A DNA stretch of 64,000 bases from Kiloniella laminariae (GTDB taxonomy: Bacteria; Pseudomonadota; Alphaproteobacteria; Kiloniellales; Kiloniellaceae). The translations under genes and the position numbers were made by a program. This document shows, in pieces, positions 5,846 through 44,427 of the stretch (position 1 is its first letter; each line of letters starts with the position of its first letter). The notes under the pieces are model-generated. The model had not been told where the DNA came from. It ran no database searches and worked only from the letters and a program-made list of their open reading frames with translations. The DNA is taken from the NCBI RefSeq assembly GCF_027214005.1, contig NZ_JAPWGY010000001.1, forward strand, positions 620,001 to 684,000, written 5' to 3'.

Positions 5846-6388
5846 TTGGTTGAGATCAAGGATTCAAAAAATCGACGATTTTTTGATTATTGGCAAAGTT
5901 TACCGCGGGATCAGGGGTGTCTTGTGCCGCGTAAAAGCAGCTTCCTGCCGGAAGAGGTTCCTCAGCTCTTGCCAAATATGCTGGTCTTCGAGGTCATTTC
6001 CCGGCACGAAATAAAAATCAGGCTTCAGGGAACCGCGATTGACGAGCAGTACGGGCAGAGCATGACCGGGGGTAATTACCTCGACTATGTTGAACCGCAC
6101 CGTCGCGATGTGGCAGCCTCGGCTTTCTGGCAAATGGCAGAGCATCCTTTTGGTATCGTCGCCGAACTTGACCAGGCTTTGTCCTCTGGCCGTTATGTGA
6201 CTGTCGAGGCAATTGGTTTCCCCCTGATTAACGACACAGGTAAAAACCCGATTATCATCTATCAGAGTAACGAGATCAAAAAAAGCAAGCGCCCGGATCA
6301 CGACGATGAAGGCAAGCTCAAGTGGATTTATGTCCTGAGCCGGCAGATCATTGATATCGGGAATGGTGCACCGGTTTTCGTTGATTAA
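5846..6388 (+). CDS. PAS_5-family single-domain protein (type A, copy 1)
   Basis: A 180-residue soluble protein consisting essentially of one PAS_5-type sensor domain. Key parts are RRFFDYWQSLPRDQG, PRKSSFLPEEVPQLLPN, IKIRLQGTAIDEQYGQSMTGGNYLDYV and the C-terminal tail IIDIGNGAPVFVD. PAS_5 proteins are small ligand-binding or protein-binding modules typical of alphaproteobacteria; no output domain is fused. The start is TTG at 5846, five bases after GGAGG; homologs begin at the same place. The next gene is a close paralog. The tail motif I-D-[IL]-G-x-G is shared by all seven type A copies in this window. Confidence 0.85.
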   Translation: MVEIKDSKNRRFFDYWQSLPRDQGCLVPRKSSFLPEEVPQLLPNMLVFEVISRHEIKIRLQGTAIDEQYGQSMTGGNYLDYVEPHRRDVAASAFWQMAEHPFGIVAELDQALSSGRYVTVEAIGFPLINDTGKNPIIIYQSNEIKKSKRPDHDDEGKLKWIYVLSRQIIDIGNGAPVFVD

Positions 6389-6599
6389 ATTTGCTTTTCC
6401 AGTGGATTTTTCCACCGGTGCTGTTTTAGTCGCAGGATTTTCCCGGCTGTATGGTCATTGCTTTGTTGAAGAAATGCTGCATTGCAGGGCAATGTTTTGC
6501 TGGAAATGATTAATTGTTTATAATCAAGCTTTTCTTGAGGGGCTTCTCCGCTGTAGTATAGCCAGTACGGGTAGAAAATCTTACATAAAGGGGGCGGTG

Positions 6600-7142
6600 T
6601 TGTTCGAGATCAGAAACCCGCGAAATCAGATTTTTTATGATTACTGGCGCAATTTACCAAGGGTTGAAGGTGAACTTCTGCCCCGGAAAAGCAGTTTCCT
6701 GCCCGAAGATATTCCTTCTATCCTGCCCAATATTATTGTCTATGAGCTGCAGGACAAGGACCAGATCATGATCCGCCTGCAGGGAACGGCAATCAACCAG
6801 CGTTTCGGGCACGATATGACCGGAGCCAATTATCTGGATTATGTTGAACCGGATCGCCGCGAGAAGGCCGCATCCGCTTTCTGGCTGATGGCTGAACAGC
6901 CCTGTGGTATCATCGCCATTCTTGATCACGCACTGTCATCGGGCCGGAGCATTACCGTTGAATCGATCGGCTTTCCGCTGATCAATGACTTTGGACCCAA
7001 TCCGATCATCATCTATCAAAGCAATGAAATCGAGCGGGAGGAGTGGCGTAACCGTCCGGAGAACGAGAAGCTCAAGCTGATCTTTGTCCAGGAACGCCAC
7101 CTGATTGATCTGGGAACCGGAACCCCCCAATTCGTTGACTGA
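6600..7142 (+). CDS. PAS_5-family single-domain protein (type A, copy 2)
   Basis: A 180-residue paralog of the preceding gene and of identical length. It shares FYDYWRNLPR, PRKSSFLPEDIPSILPN, IRLQGTAINQRFGHDMTGANYLDYVEPDRR, NPIIIYQSNEIE and the tail LIDLGTGTPQFVD. Alignment places the start at TTG 6600, five bases after AGGGGG, although GTG at 6597 is in frame directly before it. About 210 bases separate it from copy 1, including an AT-rich stretch that probably carries its own promoter. The function is inferred only as small-molecule or partner sensing. Confidence 0.85.
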   Translation: MFEIRNPRNQIFYDYWRNLPRVEGELLPRKSSFLPEDIPSILPNIIVYELQDKDQIMIRLQGTAINQRFGHDMTGANYLDYVEPDRREKAASAFWLMAEQPCGIIAILDHALSSGRSITVESIGFPLINDFGPNPIIIYQSNEIEREEWRNRPENEKLKLIFVQERHLIDLGTGTPQFVD

Positions 7143-27531: not shown

Positions 27532-28089
27532 TTGGTTGATTTCAAACACCCCAGAAGTGACCAGTTCTTCCAGTTCTGGAAAACGATCCCTCGCGAAGGT
27601 TTGGTGCCGTACCGTCAGGACTATCATCCGGAAAAAGCTGCTGCATTGCTGCCAACGATGATGATGTATGAACTGATTTCAGCCGATCATATCAAAATCC
27701 GCCTGATGGGAACGGGGATCACCCAGGATTTTGGCACGGAACGGGAAGGCAAGAATTATCTTGATTTCATCGAGCCGCAACGTCGGGAAAAAGTTTCAAA
27801 AGCCCTGTGGGAAATTGCCCGTATTCCTTGTGGCATTCGAGTTGTGGCCGAGCATCTGCTGCAAAGCGGTTTGACGGTCAAGCTGGAATCAGTCGGTTTG
27901 CCCCTGCTTAATCGCGAAGGCAGGATCAGCTGGATCCTGTTCCAGCGGAACATTCTGGGGGAACAACGCGGTCTGCCGGAACAACCCTCGGACCGGGAAT
28001 TCGATCCACGCACCTATGTCCGGCTTTTCCTGCGCGACTATATCGACATCGGCGCCGGGGTGTCAGATTTCAGCGAAGAGACCCCCTGA
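27532..28089 (+). CDS. PAS_5-family single-domain protein (type A, copy 3)
   Basis: A 185-residue PAS_5 protein. It has VDFKHPRSDQFFQFWKTIPR, IKIRLMGTGITQDFGTEREGKNYLDFIEPQRR, then SWILFQRN and the tail YIDIGAGVSDFSEETP. The start is TTG 27532, aligned exactly with the TTG starts of copies 1 and 2; its upstream TAGG is weak. It stands alone here, 6 kb from the main cluster. The role is unknown beyond PAS-type sensing. Confidence 0.83.
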   Translation: MVDFKHPRSDQFFQFWKTIPREGLVPYRQDYHPEKAAALLPTMMMYELISADHIKIRLMGTGITQDFGTEREGKNYLDFIEPQRREKVSKALWEIARIPCGIRVVAEHLLQSGLTVKLESVGLPLLNREGRISWILFQRNILGEQRGLPEQPSDREFDPRTYVRLFLRDYIDIGAGVSDFSEETP

Positions 28090-33898: not shown

Positions 33899-34540
33899 TT
33901 GGGTGAGGCAGTATTGAAGGATTGTAGTCCTGTCGATTTCAGACACTCAAAAAGCCGGTCTCTCTTTGAGTATTGGCAAAGTTTGCCCCGTCAGGATCTG
34001 GTCCCTTTTCGGCACAGTTTTCTGCCGGAACAGGTCCCTTCCCTGTTGTCCACCATGTTGCTCTATGAGCTGGTTTCTCCCGATTTTATTAAAATTCGCC
34101 TGTTGGGCTCTTTGATTGCCGACCGCTTTGGGGCTTACCGGACCGGAACCAACTATCTGGACTTTGTCGAGCAAAGCCGTCGAAAAAACGCAGCTGGAGC
34201 CCTGTGGGCCCTGGCCAGACACCCTTGCGGCATGCGGGTCTTTCTTAAACAGGAGCTCTGGAGCGGGCGGAATGCCTTGTTGGAAACCGTTGGACTGCCC
34301 CTGTTGAACGATACTCCTGGTGGTAATCCTCTGGTCATTTTCCAAAGTAATGAGGTCTTTCAGGACCATGAAGGGGAGTTTGTCGAGAAGCGACAGATCA
34401 ACGAGGTCCCGCCAGAAGGGAACTCGCTGCTTGACCGCCCCGGGCAGCCAGGATCAAAAACCCAAATCCGTTACATTCATCTCAATCGTCGGGAGTATTT
34501 TGACCTCGGCGCAGGTGTAACGGATTTTGTTGATCGCTGA
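33899..34540 (+). CDS. PAS_5-family single-domain protein (type A, copy 4)
   Basis: A 213-residue PAS_5 protein, first gene of the cluster. It has FEYWQSLPRQDLVP, IKIRLLGSLIADRFG, TGTNYLDFVEQSRR and the tail YFDLGAGVTDFVDR. It is longer than copies 1-3 because of about 25 extra polar residues between NPLVIFQSNEV and the tail. The TTG at 33899 follows GAGG at seven bases; an in-frame TTG at 33914 also has a GAGG nearby. A separate promoter from the next gene is likely because the gap is ~290 bases. Confidence 0.83.
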   Translation: MGEAVLKDCSPVDFRHSKSRSLFEYWQSLPRQDLVPFRHSFLPEQVPSLLSTMLLYELVSPDFIKIRLLGSLIADRFGAYRTGTNYLDFVEQSRRKNAAGALWALARHPCGMRVFLKQELWSGRNALLETVGLPLLNDTPGGNPLVIFQSNEVFQDHEGEFVEKRQINEVPPEGNSLLDRPGQPGSKTQIRYIHLNRREYFDLGAGVTDFVDR

Positions 34541-34831
34541 CAGGTAACGACTTACTCCCTGCTTCCAGATTTCCTTTTCATACCATACCTGTTTTCTTCT
34601 AATATTTTTCTGGTTTTTCCCTGTTATGGATGATGTGCTGGTAAAGCTGGCAAGCATTGTATAGCCACAGTTTTGCTTGTCATGTTGTGTCTGCGAGGAT
34701 CGGTCAGATCCAGGGCTTTATGATGGAAATTTATTTAAGGCATTGGTTTTGCTTGTAATAATTTGATTTTCCGGCGAATATGGCTCCGTTTTTAAACCAT
34801 GGGAACAAGGCCGTACGAAAAAGGCGGGAGA

Positions 34832-35470
34832 ATGTTGGAGTTCAGGCATAAAAAAACCGGGATCTTTTTTGACTACTGGCGGGAATTGCCCCGGCAGGGA
34901 CTGTTGCCCAGCCGCAGTGATTTCCATCCGGAAGACCTGCCTTCGCTGTTGAGCAATTTCATGATCTATGAACTGGTTTCCAGGGACTATATCAAAGTGC
35001 GTCTGCGGGGCTCGGTTCTGGGTGACCGGCTGGGGTATCATGGCATTGGGGATAATTACCTGGATCTGGTTGAGAAATCCCGCCGTTCCAAGGCGTCGGA
35101 ATCTCTCTGGGCGATGGCAACCCAACCCTGCGGCATGTACGTCATCATCGAACAGGAACTCAAGAGCGGCCTGATGGTACAGATGGAATCTCTTGGACTG
35201 CCTTTTGCCAATAGCCAAGGCGAGACACCCCTGATTATTTTCCAGAAAAACGAAATTGACAGCGATCAGGCCCGGGAAGCGGAAATTGCCTCTCGAGAAG
35301 CTGCAGCTGCAGAAGACGTGTTGGAAAAAATCGGATCAGAAATGTCCAGAGGCAAAGAACCGGAAGCTGGAATACCATCGCCTGGCGATGGTGACTGCCC
35401 ACGGTTTATTCGGCCGCTGGAGCGAATTTTTATCGATATCGGTGCTGGAATTTCTACATTCCGGGATTAA
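34832..35470 (+). CDS. PAS_5-family single-domain protein (type A, copy 5)
   Basis: A 212-residue PAS_5 protein. LEFRHKKTGIFFDYWRELPR, IKVRLRGSVLGDRLG and IGDNYLDLVEKSRR precede a 55-residue polar, Ala/Glu-rich spacer and the tail FIDIGAGISTFRD. Alignment with the other copies puts the start at ATG 34832, the only AUG at this conserved position in the type A group; the AAGG site is seven bases upstream. An ATG at 34799 is also in frame. The spacer between the PAS core and the tail is the longest in the set. Confidence 0.82.
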   Translation: MLEFRHKKTGIFFDYWRELPRQGLLPSRSDFHPEDLPSLLSNFMIYELVSRDYIKVRLRGSVLGDRLGYHGIGDNYLDLVEKSRRSKASESLWAMATQPCGMYVIIEQELKSGLMVQMESLGLPFANSQGETPLIIFQKNEIDSDQAREAEIASREAAAAEDVLEKIGSEMSRGKEPEAGIPSPGDGDCPRFIRPLERIFIDIGAGISTFRD

Positions 35471-35688
35471 AAAAAGCGGAAGGTTCCTCGGCTGAAAAAG
35501 CTTAACAATATTTTATCCGGAAACAGCTAGAATTTGTATTCCTGCAGGAAAATATCCCGGACACAGATCCTGTCGTTGTAAGTTCGTCATGGCTAAAGTA
35601 GTGTTTTTACTAGAGGAAAACGCAAACGTTCAAGGTTTTTTGTTTGTCATCTGTTACTGATATTTAATGAAATGATGAGGGCAGAGAA

Positions 35689-36225
35689 ATAATAGACTTC
35701 AGGCATCCCAACAGCCAAAGTTTCTTTGAGTACTGGTCAAGTCTTCCGCGTGAAGGTGTCTTGCCGTTACGAAGTTCCTTTCTGCCAGAGAAAATCCCCC
35801 GGCTGTTGCCGACCCTGAGTATCTATGAGCTGGTTTCCGAGGATTTCATCAAGTTCCGTCTGGTCGGCTCGACAATACGCGAACGGGTTGTCGAGAACTA
35901 CACGGGAAAAAACTATCTGGATTATGTCGCACCGGAGAGACGGGCAAAAGCCAGTGCATCGCTTTGGGCCCCAATGAAACAGCCTTGTGGCATGCGGGTT
36001 TTTTCCAACTATAACCTGTCAACCGGCCGGACTATTTTCCTCGAGGTCGTGGTGTTGCCGGTATTGAATGATCTGGGCGAAAATCCGGTAATATTGCTTC
36101 AGAGCAACGAGATCAAACCACGGGATAACCGCTCGCCTGATGAAGAGGAAAACCTGAAGGTCATCACTGTGGCAGGGCGGGATTTTATTGATATTGGTGC
36201 AGGTCTGTCCGATTTCAAAGACTGA
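35689..36225 (+). CDS. PAS_5-family protein (type A, copy 6), candidate AUA start
   Basis: A 178-residue PAS_5 protein in the first duplicated cassette. From an AUA at 35689 it reads IDFRHPNSQSFFEYWSSLPR, matching copies 3 and 5 residue for residue in layout. LPLRSSFLPEKIPRLLPT, FIKFRLVGSTIRERV, YTGKNYLDYV and the tail FIDIGAGLSDFKD follow. The frame is closed by TGA at 35668-35670 and contains no AUG, GUG or UUG before TTG 35761, which would cut off the first PAS strand and helix. GAGGG lies seven bases before the AUA. Initiation at AUA is inferred; internal TTG or pseudogene status remain possible. Confidence 0.75.
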   Translation: MIDFRHPNSQSFFEYWSSLPREGVLPLRSSFLPEKIPRLLPTLSIYELVSEDFIKFRLVGSTIRERVVENYTGKNYLDYVAPERRAKASASLWAPMKQPCGMRVFSNYNLSTGRTIFLEVVVLPVLNDLGENPVILLQSNEIKPRDNRSPDEEENLKVITVAGRDFIDIGAGLSDFKD

Positions 36226-36331
36226 AATGCCAAAGAGTTCTGTCCGGATTTTGAATTTTGCCCAGGTTTTTCGCACGACCAGAACAGGACAAGCGCCTGA
36301 TCTGGTCTGATGAAGCCGCAAGATAAGGCGC

Positions 36332-36805
36332 TTATTTAAAGGCCATCAGGGTGAGAGTTTTGATGACCACGATGTCTTGTGTGTTTTTTGTCTGATCGTT
36401 GTCAGCCAGGGGCTGTGTGATCTGGTGCCAGTGCTGGTGTTCCTTGTCAAACCAGTCAAAAACACCACAGAGCCAGCTCGGGGTCAGGTTTGTCAGAACT
36501 TCCCGGTGTGTCGCCCGAAGGATTTCGCTGGTACCGGGGCCTGCTTCGCTGAGATAGTGACCGGTTGGCTCTTGCCCGCTTAACTCTACCAGACGGGTGC
36601 CCCAAAAGGTCGTCTGGAAATCCTGCTGTTCGGTGATCCAGCGATTGACAATCATGGACGGCCAATAGGGCAACATTGCCCTGTTGCTCTGAACCTGTTG
36701 TATGGTCAGGATGCGCCCCTCCCGGACATGATCACAAAGAGACTGGAATGCAACAAGTTCCGGGTGGCGGATACTGTCTTCACAATTGCGCTGGATCGAG
36801 GTGAT
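36332..36805 (-). CDS. PAS_5-like protein (type B, copy 1), candidate AUC start
   Basis: A 157-residue protein of a second, more divergent PAS_5-like group. It reads SIQRNCEDSIRHPELVAFQS at the N-terminus, then LPYWPSMIVNRWITEQQDFQTTFWGTRLVE (quoted in part) with the family G-T and TGHYL motifs. There is no IDIGAG tail. The first AUG is at 36676, inside the conserved WPSMIVNRW block's lead-in. Homology to the other two type B proteins continues without gaps up to an AUC at 36805, seven bases after GGGAG, and stops there. It is convergent with copy A6. Confidence 0.7.
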   Translation of the reverse strand: MTSIQRNCEDSIRHPELVAFQSLCDHVREGRILTIQQVQSNRAMLPYWPSMIVNRWITEQQDFQTTFWGTRLVELSGQEPTGHYLSEAGPGTSEILRATHREVLTNLTPSWLCGVFDWFDKEHQHWHQITQPLADNDQTKNTQDIVVIKTLTLMAFK

Positions 36806-37119
36806 TGACCTGCTCCCTGATCAAAATTTATGGTCAAAACATCTGCATTTTCTGAGGTATCTTCTGTGTAAGTGTAGCTTGAAGTAGTAAATTTTTCTAT
36901 CTGTGATTTTGAGAATTTCTTAAAATGTTTCCTATGGTAGTGGCCGATGTGACCACTCCTCTTTTCGCCAGAGTAAAATATACAAGAGGGCAGGAAGGGT
37001 GTTACTATCAAGGATCTGGAACACGGCAGGGGCTCTGAACCAGGGGGCATTCAGGGAGCCGCTATTGCCAGGAGCCGGGGTGTCAAGAGGTTGGTCCGGA
37101 TCAGACAGGGGCAAAGAAG
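36806..37119. promoter_or_regulatory. Divergent spacer between the two duplicated PAS_5 cassettes
   Basis: About 310 bases between the type B copy 1 start (-) and type A copy 7 start (+). AT-rich around 36830-36930, GC-rich afterwards. AGGGG precedes the candidate AUU start by eight bases. No gene is supported. Confidence 0.45.
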
Positions 37120-37656
37120 ATTATTAAATTTGAGCACCCGCACAGTGTCGCGTTTTTTGACCACTGGCAAAATCTCCCGCGAGAGGGATTGCTGCCTTTA
37201 CGCAGTTCTTTCCTGCCGGAGAAGGTTCCGAGACTTTTGCCCACATTGAGTATCTATGAGCTGGTTTCGCGGGACTATATAAAGTTCCGGCTGATCGGTA
37301 CGGCAATCAGAGAACGCATGGGGGCAGACATGACCGGGAAGAACTACCTGGATTTTGTCGATCCTGCCCGCCGGGAAAAGTCGGCCGGATCTTTCTGGGC
37401 CGTGGTTGAGCAACCTTGCGCCATGCGGGTTATTTCCAATCACGCCATGACCTCGGGACGGCATATGTTTCTTGAGGTGCTGATGGTGCCGGTGGAAAAC
37501 GACAGGGGGGAGAACCCGGTTGTGTTGTGTCAGACCAATGAAATAAACAAACCGGGAAAAGAGGAGTTTCATGACCCCGATGGCCTGAAGCTTGTCACCG
37601 TTTCAAATCGGGAATTCATTGATATCGGGGCTGGTCTTTCCAGCTTTCGCGACTGA
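37120..37656 (+). CDS. PAS_5-family protein (type A, copy 7), candidate AUU start
   Basis: A 178-residue PAS_5 protein, exactly the length of copy 6 when both are started at their AUH codons. It reads IKFEHPHSVAFFDHWQNLPR, LPLRSSFLPEKVPRLLPT, YIKFRLIGTAIRERMG, MTGKNYLDFVDPARR and FIDIGAGLSSFRD. Upstream of TTG 37189 the frame is open to 37039 with no AUG, GUG or UUG. Homology ends at AUU 37120, eight bases after AGGGG. The TTG would remove 23 conserved residues. I infer initiation at AUU, the rare start class known from infC. Confidence 0.75.
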   Translation: MIKFEHPHSVAFFDHWQNLPREGLLPLRSSFLPEKVPRLLPTLSIYELVSRDYIKFRLIGTAIRERMGADMTGKNYLDFVDPARREKSAGSFWAVVEQPCAMRVISNHAMTSGRHMFLEVLMVPVENDRGENPVVLCQTNEINKPGKEEFHDPDGLKLVTVSNREFIDIGAGLSSFRD

Positions 37657-37745
37657 AGCCCGGTTTTCAGACAGAAATGCTGTTGGTTGCCTCTGAAACT
37701 AAAAGGCTATTCCCGCTTTTTGTTGTACCGCCTGTTCCCGGCTTT

Positions 37746-38207
37746 TTATCCGGCAAAGACCAGAAAGGAAATTGTTGCGGACAATGTGTTTTCAACAGGA
37801 ACTTCGCGGGTCAGCGGCAAGGTAACCTGGTCCCAGCGGCGATGGGATTTGTTGAACCAGTCAAGCTGTCCCCCCAGGTATAGCGGCTGTCCGGTTTTAA
37901 TCACCTCGGCATGGGCATAGTGCAGCGTTTCTCCGGTCTCCCCTCCGGCTGAGCGGACATGCTGTCCTGTCTGTTCCAGACCGCAGGCCTCTACCAGCCT
38001 GGTGCCCCAAAAGGTAGTGAGAAAATCCTTGGCGTCACTGTCCCAGCGATTGACGATCATCGAAGGCCAAAAACCCAGAAACGGTCGGGTTTGCAACTGT
38101 TGAAGAGCCAGAGGCGCATCGTTTCTCAGCGGGTCGCAAAGCGCCATGAATTTCCTGATTTCCGGATGGGCCATGCTTTGGGGGTCGTTGCGGATAATGC
38201 TGCTTAT
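37746..38207 (-). CDS. PAS_5-like protein (type B, copy 2), candidate AUA start
   Basis: A 153-residue type B protein. It reads SSIIRNDPQSMAHPEIRKFM, LQTRPFLGFWPSMIVNRW, FLTTFWGTRLVEACGLEQTG and ends TISFLVFAG. The AUA at 38207 lies six bases after a very good GGGGAG, and alignment to type B copies 1 and 3 starts exactly there. An internal AUG (at MAHPE) would shorten the first helix, and a distant upstream AUG at 38330 adds 41 residues without homology. It is convergent with copy A7, repeating the arrangement of the first cassette. Confidence 0.75.
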   Translation of the reverse strand: MSSIIRNDPQSMAHPEIRKFMALCDPLRNDAPLALQQLQTRPFLGFWPSMIVNRWDSDAKDFLTTFWGTRLVEACGLEQTGQHVRSAGGETGETLHYAHAEVIKTGQPLYLGGQLDWFNKSHRRWDQVTLPLTREVPVENTLSATISFLVFAG

Positions 38208-38577
38208 GTCACTCTCCCCGGTTGCCGTGCCGATCAGGTGATCCGGGCGGGTATTCGGAATTTGATTCTGAAAATGAATCTGTTCAATTCGATGCTGCCG
38301 AAAGTATAGCATCATACAGGAGTATGTCACTTATTTATTCAGAAAAATTAGGCATTTAGTAAAAAATTCATATTTTACTTGCCGGGTTATTCGCCTGTGT
38401 GTTTTCAGTAAAATTTTGGTCCCTATTTTCGATTGTTGCCCTCAAGGAGGGCTTTGCGATCCGGGTCTTTTTCTGGGCCAGAGAAGAGGTATGAAAAAGG
38501 TTTCAGACAGGAAAGAGCAGGTTGGTTCCGGTGGGGAAAATCTGTTGTTCCCGGTACAGTTATCGGCCTGTCACCGG
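38208..38577. other. AT-rich spacer upstream of type B copy 2
   Basis: About 370 bases, clearly AT-rich from 38320 to 38410, presumably with the promoter of the type B gene at 37746-38207. A plus-strand frame at 38416 runs antisense into the next gene and is not supported. Confidence 0.45.
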
Positions 38578-39039
38578 TCAGGAACCCTTCTGGTCAAAGC
38601 TGACATAGGCCAGCGTCTCACTGACCGTTCCGTTGCGCTCAAGCGGGAGAATTACCGCGTTGAGTTGCTGGAAATCTTTGTTCAGCCAGTGGATGGAGGT
38701 TGCGAGATACACCGGTTTGAGCTGTGTCATGACATCGTGATGGGCCTGCCAGAAGATGTTTTCTGTTTGGGGGAATTCACCGCGTTTGATGTATTTCCAG
38801 CTCAGGTCCATACCATAGACGGCAGCAAGGCCTGATCCCCAGTAACTGTAAAAGAAATCCTGTTTTTCCGCGTCCCAGCGGTTGAGGATAAGTGTCGGCC
38901 AATAGGAGAGAAAAGGTCTGTTCTGAATCAGGGGAATGGTCATGTATCCCTGGCCACGGACCTGATCGCAGAGCCGGAGGAATTCGACAATGTCCGGGTG
39001 GTTTATCGTGGTTTCCTGATTGAGATAGATTTCCGGCAC
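38578..39039 (-). CDS. PAS_5-like protein (type B, copy 3)
   Basis: A 153-residue type B protein, the same length as copy 2. It reads VPEIYLNQETTINHPDIVEF, IQNRPFLSYWPTLILNRW, FYSYWGSGLAAVYGMDLSWK and ends AYVSFDQKGS. Alignment with the other type B proteins starts at GTG 39039, which corresponds to their AUA and AUC codons. The upstream site is poor (AGAAAG). A longer frame from 39108 adds 23 residues without homology. The G-T of the PAS_5 core is replaced by G-S here. It closes the cluster. Confidence 0.75.
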   Translation of the reverse strand: MPEIYLNQETTINHPDIVEFLRLCDQVRGQGYMTIPLIQNRPFLSYWPTLILNRWDAEKQDFFYSYWGSGLAAVYGMDLSWKYIKRGEFPQTENIFWQAHHDVMTQLKPVYLATSIHWLNKDFQQLNAVILPLERNGTVSETLAYVSFDQKGS

Positions 39040-43603: not shown

Positions 43604-43975
43604 TCAATTGATCCAACATTTTATGGAGAACAAGAATAGCATGTTTAGAAAATTTGCTCCCTTTTTCTCAAATCTTGTTGCCAGCCGCCTCATATCCTTA
43701 ATTTTACAAAAGAAACGCTCGACAATATTCCTCATTGCATAAAGGTTATTATCGTGAGGGATGGGCTTTTTGGCGTTACTTTTTGTGGGGATGACAGCCA
43801 ATGCGCCTTCATCAGCGATAGCTTTTCTGATTTTCTGACTGCTATAAGCCTTATCAGCCACAATGGCCAGAGGTGGTACTTCCCAATCAAGGAAATCAGG
43901 CATCAGCTTGCTGTCATGAACGTGACCACCACTAATCGCAAGACGGATCGGGCGGCCTTTCTGATCTACGGCCAC
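43604..43975 (-). CDS. IS5-family transposase, ORF B (C-terminal DDE part)
   Basis: The downstream frame of the transposase. It carries IVADKAYSSQKIRKAI (second Asp of the DDE triad) and NIVERFFCKIKDMRRLATRF (the Glu and the Y/R signature). Codons upstream of its first canonical start read IGRSRGGRTSKVHVAVDQKG, which is the normal IS5 core, so it is made as a fusion with ORF A by a -1 frameshift at the A6G run at 44031-44040. Confidence 0.85.
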   Translation of the reverse strand: MAVDQKGRPIRLAISGGHVHDSKLMPDFLDWEVPPLAIVADKAYSSQKIRKAIADEGALAVIPTKSNAKKPIPHDNNLYAMRNIVERFFCKIKDMRRLATRFEKKGANFLNMLFLFSIKCWIN

Positions 43976-44352
43976 GTGAACCTTACTTGTCCGACCTCCG
44001 CGTGAGCGGCCAATACTTTCCGCCAGTTCCCCTTTTTTGACCCAGCCGCTGCGCGGTGTGCCTTTACAATAGAACCATCAATAAAAATCAGGGCGTCTTC
44101 GCATTCTTCAGCCAAAGCATCAAATATACCCTTCCAGATACCGCGTTCTCCCCAACGGACATAACGGTTATAGACCGTTGTGTGAGGGCCGTAACGCTCA
44201 GGAAGATCGCGCCATGGCGCGCCTGTGCGCAATATATAAAAAATCCCGTTCAGAATAACCCGGTCATCCCGACGCTCCGGACCACGGCCTCTTTTCGGTA
44301 GTAAAGGCTTAATAACCAACCATTCTGCATCGCTTAAATCAAATCTTGCCAT
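43966..44352 (-). CDS. IS5-family transposase, ORF A
   Basis: A 128-residue upstream frame. It starts MARFDLSDAEWLVIKPLLPK and includes RTGAPWRDLPERYG and the first catalytic Asp in IFIDGSIVKAH. GGGAG precedes the ATG at six bases. The last ~25 codons after the A6G run are the out-of-frame version of ORF B's core. A -1 shift fuses A and B into the active transposase. Confidence 0.87.
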   Translation of the reverse strand: MARFDLSDAEWLVIKPLLPKRGRGPERRDDRVILNGIFYILRTGAPWRDLPERYGPHTTVYNRYVRWGERGIWKGIFDALAEECEDALIFIDGSIVKAHRAAAGSKKGNWRKVLAAHAEVGQVRFTWP

Positions 44353-44427
44353 ATAAAACTCCCTAAGTTGGGAGTTATGAATCATAAAAACTCATATACT
44401 GCAAGGTGTTGAATTGGGTTCACACCC

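Follow-up and report, generated by a model that had tools for sequence, protein, structure and literature searches.

The 64,000-nucleotide window analyzed here, the whole stretch of Kiloniella laminariae DNA from positions 620,001 to 684,000 of contig NZ_JAPWGY010000001.1 (assembly GCF_027214005.1), carries a run of small-protein genes between positions 34832 and 39039, in the order canonical PAS_5 gene (34832), A1, B1, A2, B2, and B3. Four of these genes, A1, A2, B1, and B2, appear to start at AUA, AUU, or AUC, here written AUH, and not at one of the canonical start codons ATG, GTG, and TTG (AUG, GUG, and UUG). The genome carrying the window is called G000 and the eight other Kiloniella genomes used for comparison G001 to G008, of which G002 is the nearest relative. 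The genes are as follows.

34832..35470, plus strand: upstream PAS_5 paralog, with ATG at the aligned start column of the A genes
35689..36225, plus strand: A1, PAS_5 protein of 178 codons, proposed start ATA, codon 2 ATA (PAS_5 expectation value E=3.4e-10, 40.4 bits)
37120..37656, plus strand: A2, PAS_5 protein of 178 codons, proposed start ATT, codon 2 ATT (PAS_5 E=9.8e-15, 55 bits)
36332..36805, minus strand: B1, PAS-like protein of 157 codons (by predicted fold), proposed start ATC, also ATC in G002
37746..38207, minus strand: B2, PAS-like homolog of B1 with 153 codons (by alignment with B1 and B3), proposed start ATA, also ATA in G002
38578..39039, minus strand: B3, third B copy, GTG at the same aligned column without a Shine-Dalgarno match, used as the canonical reference

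The initial annotation described all four AUH genes as PAS_5-type. This holds for A1 and A2, which both exceed the curated PAS_5 (PF07310) cut-off of 22 bits, but not for B1 and B2, which matched no Pfam family at E<=1, PAS_5 included; a profile comparison between A and B gave a probability of 1.4%. The predicted model of B1 has a predicted local distance difference test score (pLDDT) of 81.8, and the 50 matches listed by Foldseek are by title nearly all PAS or LOV proteins, although with modest scores (among the matches listed, the best E was 1.0e-3 and the template modeling score, TM, 0.37-0.51). Judged from this model the B proteins would be PAS-like, not demonstrably PAS_5. The PAS_5 family is itself expanded in G000, with 24 matches of which seven lie inside the window (5849-7139, 27532-28077, and 33899-37656), and TTG starts are frequent among them.

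The proposed starts, ATA at 35689 and ATT at 37120 on the plus strand and ATC at 36805 and ATA at 38207 on the minus strand, were borne out both as codons and as coordinates. It is also clear that the homology in each of the four genes extends upstream past the first canonical codon as far as the AUH codon, that the B1 and B2 codons align without gaps with the GTG of B3, and that the paralogs have paired lengths of 178/178 and 157/153, all of which had been claimed before. The first downstream ATG, GTG, or TTG is found at codon +24 in A1, +23 in A2, +43 in B1, and +11 in B2, and in A1, A2, and B1 of G000 there is no such codon between the in-frame upstream stop and the AUH codon. For the 24 PAS_5 matches in G000, a canonical start is present at or before profile position +1 in 22, the exceptions being only A1 and A2. 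All four frames are intact with ratios of nonsynonymous to synonymous divergence (dN/dS) of 0.02-0.13 between G000 and G002 (for A1, dN 0.016 and dS 0.716), and the four genes are under purifying selection.

Orthologs of the A genes are present in seven of the eight other genomes of the genus; none was found in G005, which is 1.5 Mb in size, 77% complete, and without a match to infC as well. Alignment of orthologs, which the initial annotation had suggested as a check, supports the AUH start well for the A lineage throughout the genus. When both copies in G000 and G002 are counted, 10/10 A-lineage genes from eight genomes carry AUH AUH at the same aligned column: ATT ATT in seven genes, ATT ATC in G008, and ATA ATA in both A1 genes, the G002 ortholog of A1 being 97% identical. 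Since the A genes of G001, G003, G006, and G007 have an in-frame TGA at codon -2, an upstream start is ruled out there, and their first ATG, GTG, or TTG lies 11-16 codons inside. The homolog set from the fetched genus loci comprised 45 genes, the 10 of the A lineage and 35 others, of which 31 have a canonical codon at the start column or the next while four have a canonical start further upstream. In a tree of these 45 homologs the 10 AUH genes form one clade (support 96/98), and the AUH label requires a single change, a number as low as this being obtained in 0/500 shuffles. The changes before the first canonical start, counted between G000 and G002 as synonymous/nonsynonymous, are supportive of coding for A1 (6/2) and thin for A2 (3/3). 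Outside the genus, the homolog in Aestuariispira insulae (47%) has a GTG one codon before the start column; of the 12 loci of homologs, the four that remain besides this one and seven Kiloniella-type orthologs are canonical upstream or at +1. No AUH start was seen outside the genus in these loci, which do not cover the starts of wider PAS_5 relatives.

Codon 1 is ATT in 8/8 A-lineage genes outside the A1 branch. In these eight AUU-type genes 78 residues are invariant and could be encoded by synonymous codons, and one and the same codon is kept at only two of them, codon 1 (ATT) and Asn132. Silent sites are mostly saturated at this distance: six species were compared in 15 pairs, of which 13 have a dS that is infinite or at least 2.5 and two have values of 0.75 and 0.98. 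A change from AUU to AUG was seen in none of the 10 A-lineage genes. Because the initiator inserts formylmethionine (fMet) whatever the start codon, such a change would leave the protein unchanged, and protein function therefore fails to explain the retention of AUU; judged by codon usage in the alignment, selection on initiation strength can account for it.

For B1 and B2 the AUH start is fairly supported, on two genomes only. The B1 ATC and the B2 ATA are both retained in G002, the one close relative that holds these genes (88 and 90% identical, respectively), and the B orthologs located in G001, G003, G004, G007, and G008 all start with GTG, like B3. The B ortholog of G006 was not found by the motif search, which gave eight loci, those from G000 and G002 being their B3 copy. 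As far as the alignments go, AUH in B belongs to the duplicates of G000 and G002, in a lineage distinct from A. The changes before the first canonical start in B2 (2/1 synonymous/nonsynonymous) give thin support for coding. In B3, a TTG at codon -23 and a GTG at codon -20 are also in frame upstream.

Shine-Dalgarno-like sequences had been described 7, 8, 7, and 6 bases before the starts of A1, A2, B1, and B2, and they are indeed found there. Duplex free energies (dG) were scored with ACCUCCUU, which we take to be the anti-Shine-Dalgarno core.

35677..35681, plus strand: GAGGG, 7 nt before the A1 ATA, duplex dG -6.1
37107..37111, plus strand: AGGGG, 8 nt before the A2 ATT, duplex dG -5.7
36813..36817, minus strand: GGGAG, 7 nt before the B1 ATC, duplex dG -6.9
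38214..38219, minus strand: GGGGAG, 6 nt before the B2 ATA, duplex dG -7.6

The values at the AUH sites range from -5.7 to -8.4 in 14/14 genes, and those at 12 internal canonical starts, which come from 10 of these genes (all but the four of G002), from -4.7 to +0.6. The GTG of B3 shows the reverse of its AUH paralogs with their strong matches, having a dG of +0.2 and no Shine-Dalgarno match.

To judge how unusual such a start is, reciprocal ortholog pairs were taken from 384 kb of G000 and 400 kb each of G001 and G007. A pair was counted when it shared an AUH codon with a Shine-Dalgarno match and had six or more conserved codons between this codon and the first canonical start of either gene. 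The pairs that passed numbered 2/127 for G000-G001, 1/126 for G000-G007, and 2/282 for G001-G007, with the A gene in each set and as the only clean case in the three. Two other passers were rejected because their homology sets in ahead of the AUH codon: by 21 columns before the ATT of a transposase frame (663607), and by 23 columns in a Crp-like regulator frame (G001 C19:519948) that contains a run of A. Since this test misses AUH genes with an early canonical codon (such as infC) as well as the B genes, there being no AUH partner for them in those genomes, its result is a floor and not a genome-wide count. Looser criteria used earlier gave 16 candidates in 150 conserved open reading frames (ORFs) and 13/127, 8/126, and 103/282 pairs, with much noise from BLAST alignments that extended into 5' regions.

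Initiation factor 3 (IF3) discriminates against AUH starts, weak initiation at AUH being established biochemistry, and its own gene infC is known for an AUH start with autoregulation. We searched for infC in 30 genomes including G000 and found a match in 28, the misses being G005 and G030. The aligned start is AUA in 26 genomes and AUC in one (G023), while G029 has an AUA one codon earlier, giving AUH in 28/28 and showing that these organisms use AUH starts. No canonical codon stands upstream in frame in 25/28, and G008, G024, and G031 have one 18-40 codons upstream. The infC gene of G000 starts with AUA, and eight Kiloniella infC genes read GGGAG-CACGAC(A/G)-AUA. For infC (G000:C33:680087 region) a pipeline restricted to ATG, GTG, and TTG would need a later codon in most of the 28 genomes of the order. 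A second IF3 was ruled out by the single infC match. An alternative initiator tRNA reading AUH was likewise rejected, as none with an anticodon other than CAU was present among 42 tRNA matches (anticodons by ARAGORN); the initiator tRNA itself, which is truncated by two contig ends and which ARAGORN did not call, has a CAU anticodon as read by eye.

We propose, with a probability of roughly 0.7, that weak AUH initiation discriminated against by IF3 is the best explanation for these observations. In A1, A2, B1, and B2 the ordinary initiator tRNA would start translation at AUA, AUU, or AUC, with the good Shine-Dalgarno match as its guide. The poor codon-anticodon fit, against which IF3 discriminates, would keep synthesis of the small PAS sensor proteins low, and selection would have maintained this low synthesis. 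The output of the PAS genes would further rise and fall with the availability of IF3, as that of infC does; they are expected to follow IF3 like infC because infC itself starts with AUA here. The initial annotation had spoken of deliberately weak, IF3-sensitive initiation. The first part of that statement would follow from the established biochemistry together with the retention of AUU across mostly saturated silent sites, and the IF3 sensitivity, which we infer, gains from the AUA of infC in G000 and from AUH in 28/28 genomes. As to a physiological role, a sensor whose dose must stay low would be a plausible reason for a weak start.

Several observations weigh against this explanation. The tandem AUH AUH leaves the choice between the two codons undecided in the A genes, and the A gene of G008 has a TTG just three codons in (dG -4.7). 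Canonical codons occur in frame upstream in G000 B2 (GTG at -41, ATG at -36/-35) and in G002 A2 (ATG at -18, GTG at -13, ATG at -12). These are the only two of the 14 AUH genes with any, and upstream canonical starts were rejected as the partner ortholog of each is without them, including the G002 ortholog of B2. Taken by itself, the Shine-Dalgarno match is not decisive, as 19% of 3000 random window positions reach a dG of -5 and 10% reach -6. Finally, the case for B1 and B2 rests on two close genomes, and the changes before the first canonical start in B1 (5/10 synonymous/nonsynonymous, G000 vs G002) are weak for coding.

A serious contender, to which we give somewhat less than even odds, is that the AUH codons are real starts whose weakness is a static low set-point, without any regulatory use of IF3 levels. 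It overlaps with IF3-discriminated initiation as proposed above and differs from it in the last step only. The paralogs also favor weak starts (TTG, GTG) at the start column, and the third base varies between the duplicates (AUA, AUU, AUC). AUU in 8/8 genes over mostly saturated divergence shows that membership of the class matters, yet it cannot separate a set-point from a switch. At the other end, IF3-discriminated initiation might extend to a small IF3 regulon in Kiloniella, in which infC and a PAS cassette of two lineages share AUH, free IF3 or the IF3:30S ratio sets the sensor dose, and the duplicates drift between AUA, AUU, and AUC but not to NUG. This is a tentative idea that we consider rather unlikely; if true, the AUH class would couple PAS sensor dose to IF3.

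It is improbable, but worth weighing, that the genes are translated by termination-reinitiation, in which a ribosome finishing a short leader ORF in another frame, whose end overlaps the AUH codon, initiates again there. An overlapping ORF with a stop beginning 5 nt after the A of AUU is present in 7/8 AUU-type genes, and both A1 genes have a leader ORF (MMRAEK, MARVEK) that ends over the AUA. The leader is missing, however, in G008, in B1 (2/2 genomes), and in B2 (1/2 genomes). Moreover, the leaders do not begin alike, and the stop they have in common is a product of the codons that come after the AUH start. We see still less reason to believe in the internal TTG and ATG codons, which a frame list restricted to ATG, GTG, and TTG gives as starts and which would yield a shorter protein with the AUH stretch untranslated: in the A genes the first internal codons are found at +3 to +24, differing by gene and with poorer Shine-Dalgarno matches, and most would remove the invariant W16, P20, and R21 and the start of the PAS_5 match (residue 5). 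Gene decay with loss of an original AUG is hardly credible. The duplication of the cassette in G000 and G002 would fit it, but dN/dS is 0.02-0.13, the frames are intact, and the orthologs from six further genomes have AUU as well. A frameshift from an upstream ORF into the frame was also considered and rejected, as no shared slippery site was seen by eye, no systematic search having been made.

To our knowledge, few bacterial genes besides infC start with AUH. The pcnB gene of E. coli reportedly has an AUU start that limits its expression; in this it is like the A genes, but it is an unrelated gene and a single case. The likeness to infC lies in the AUH start combined with a Shine-Dalgarno match, the GGGAG-7 nt-AUA of G000 infC having the layout of B1 and nearly that of A1. 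The difference is that infC is under the control of the protein it encodes and that the PAS genes do not encode translation factors. The autoregulation of infC is mentioned in PMC13009471, which also describes Staphylococcus aureus cvfC1 (AUU) and ccpN (AUA), where initiation was detected by Ribo-Ret and reporters gave approximately 10% of AUG in poor medium. In these small or regulatory genes too the AUH start is conserved and has a strong Shine-Dalgarno match, but, according to the same source, they are single genes in Firmicutes and shown by experiment, whereas the Kiloniella genes are read from sequence. According to PMC5472188, the GTC start of Streptomyces sigR is repressed by IF3 and the control is lost when the codon is made canonical; here as well a non-canonical start is conserved within the genus and IF3 keeps the output of a regulator low. 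It differs in the GTC codon, in the IF3 effect being shown with IF3* mutants, and in not being a gene family (PMC5472188). Caulobacter MopJ, described as a single-domain PAS_5 protein of 165 residues that modulates the cell cycle from the pole and is raised in stationary phase via transcription and (p)ppGpp (PMC4432633), resembles the A genes as a single PAS_5 domain in an alphaproteobacterium. It is unlike them in that no unusual start is noted in the available portion of that paper (PMC4432633).

The traits held in common with infC, pcnB, cvfC1, and ccpN are the lack of a canonical codon at the conserved N-terminus (10/10 A genes and 4/4 B1 and B2 genes, all with AUH at the aligned start column), a Shine-Dalgarno match in 14/14 at a dG of -5.7 or below, and an AUH start conserved between species, which for A extends through the genus and for B1 and B2 covers two genomes. 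Among the top-ranked matches of the open-licence literature, AUH starts were reported neither for PAS_5 genes nor for Kiloniella. The kind of start is thus known from infC, pcnB, sigR, cvfC1, and ccpN, and its genus-wide retention and its clustering in two PAS-like lineages are apparently undescribed in the open-licence literature surveyed. Gene finders restricted to AUG, GUG, and UUG overlook such genes. Here one lineage keeps AUH throughout the genus, a neighboring PAS-like lineage has it too, and the canonical paralogs beside them are natural controls, making IF3 discrimination as a means of gene control readily testable.

Two observations concern the frames met in the ortholog-pair samples. 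The Crp-like frame at G001:C19:519948-520580 (minus strand; cNMP_binding and HTH_Crp_2) and its G007 ortholog have no canonical start near the beginning, and in G001 an ATG-started frame enters across a run of ten A, which suggests frameshifting, transcript slippage, or a conserved pseudogene. At 43604-44385 of the window (minus strand) an IS4/5-type transposase is encoded in two overlapping frames, with Pfam matches to IS4/5-type and DDE families, like frameshifted insertion sequences, and a similar copy is present in G001.

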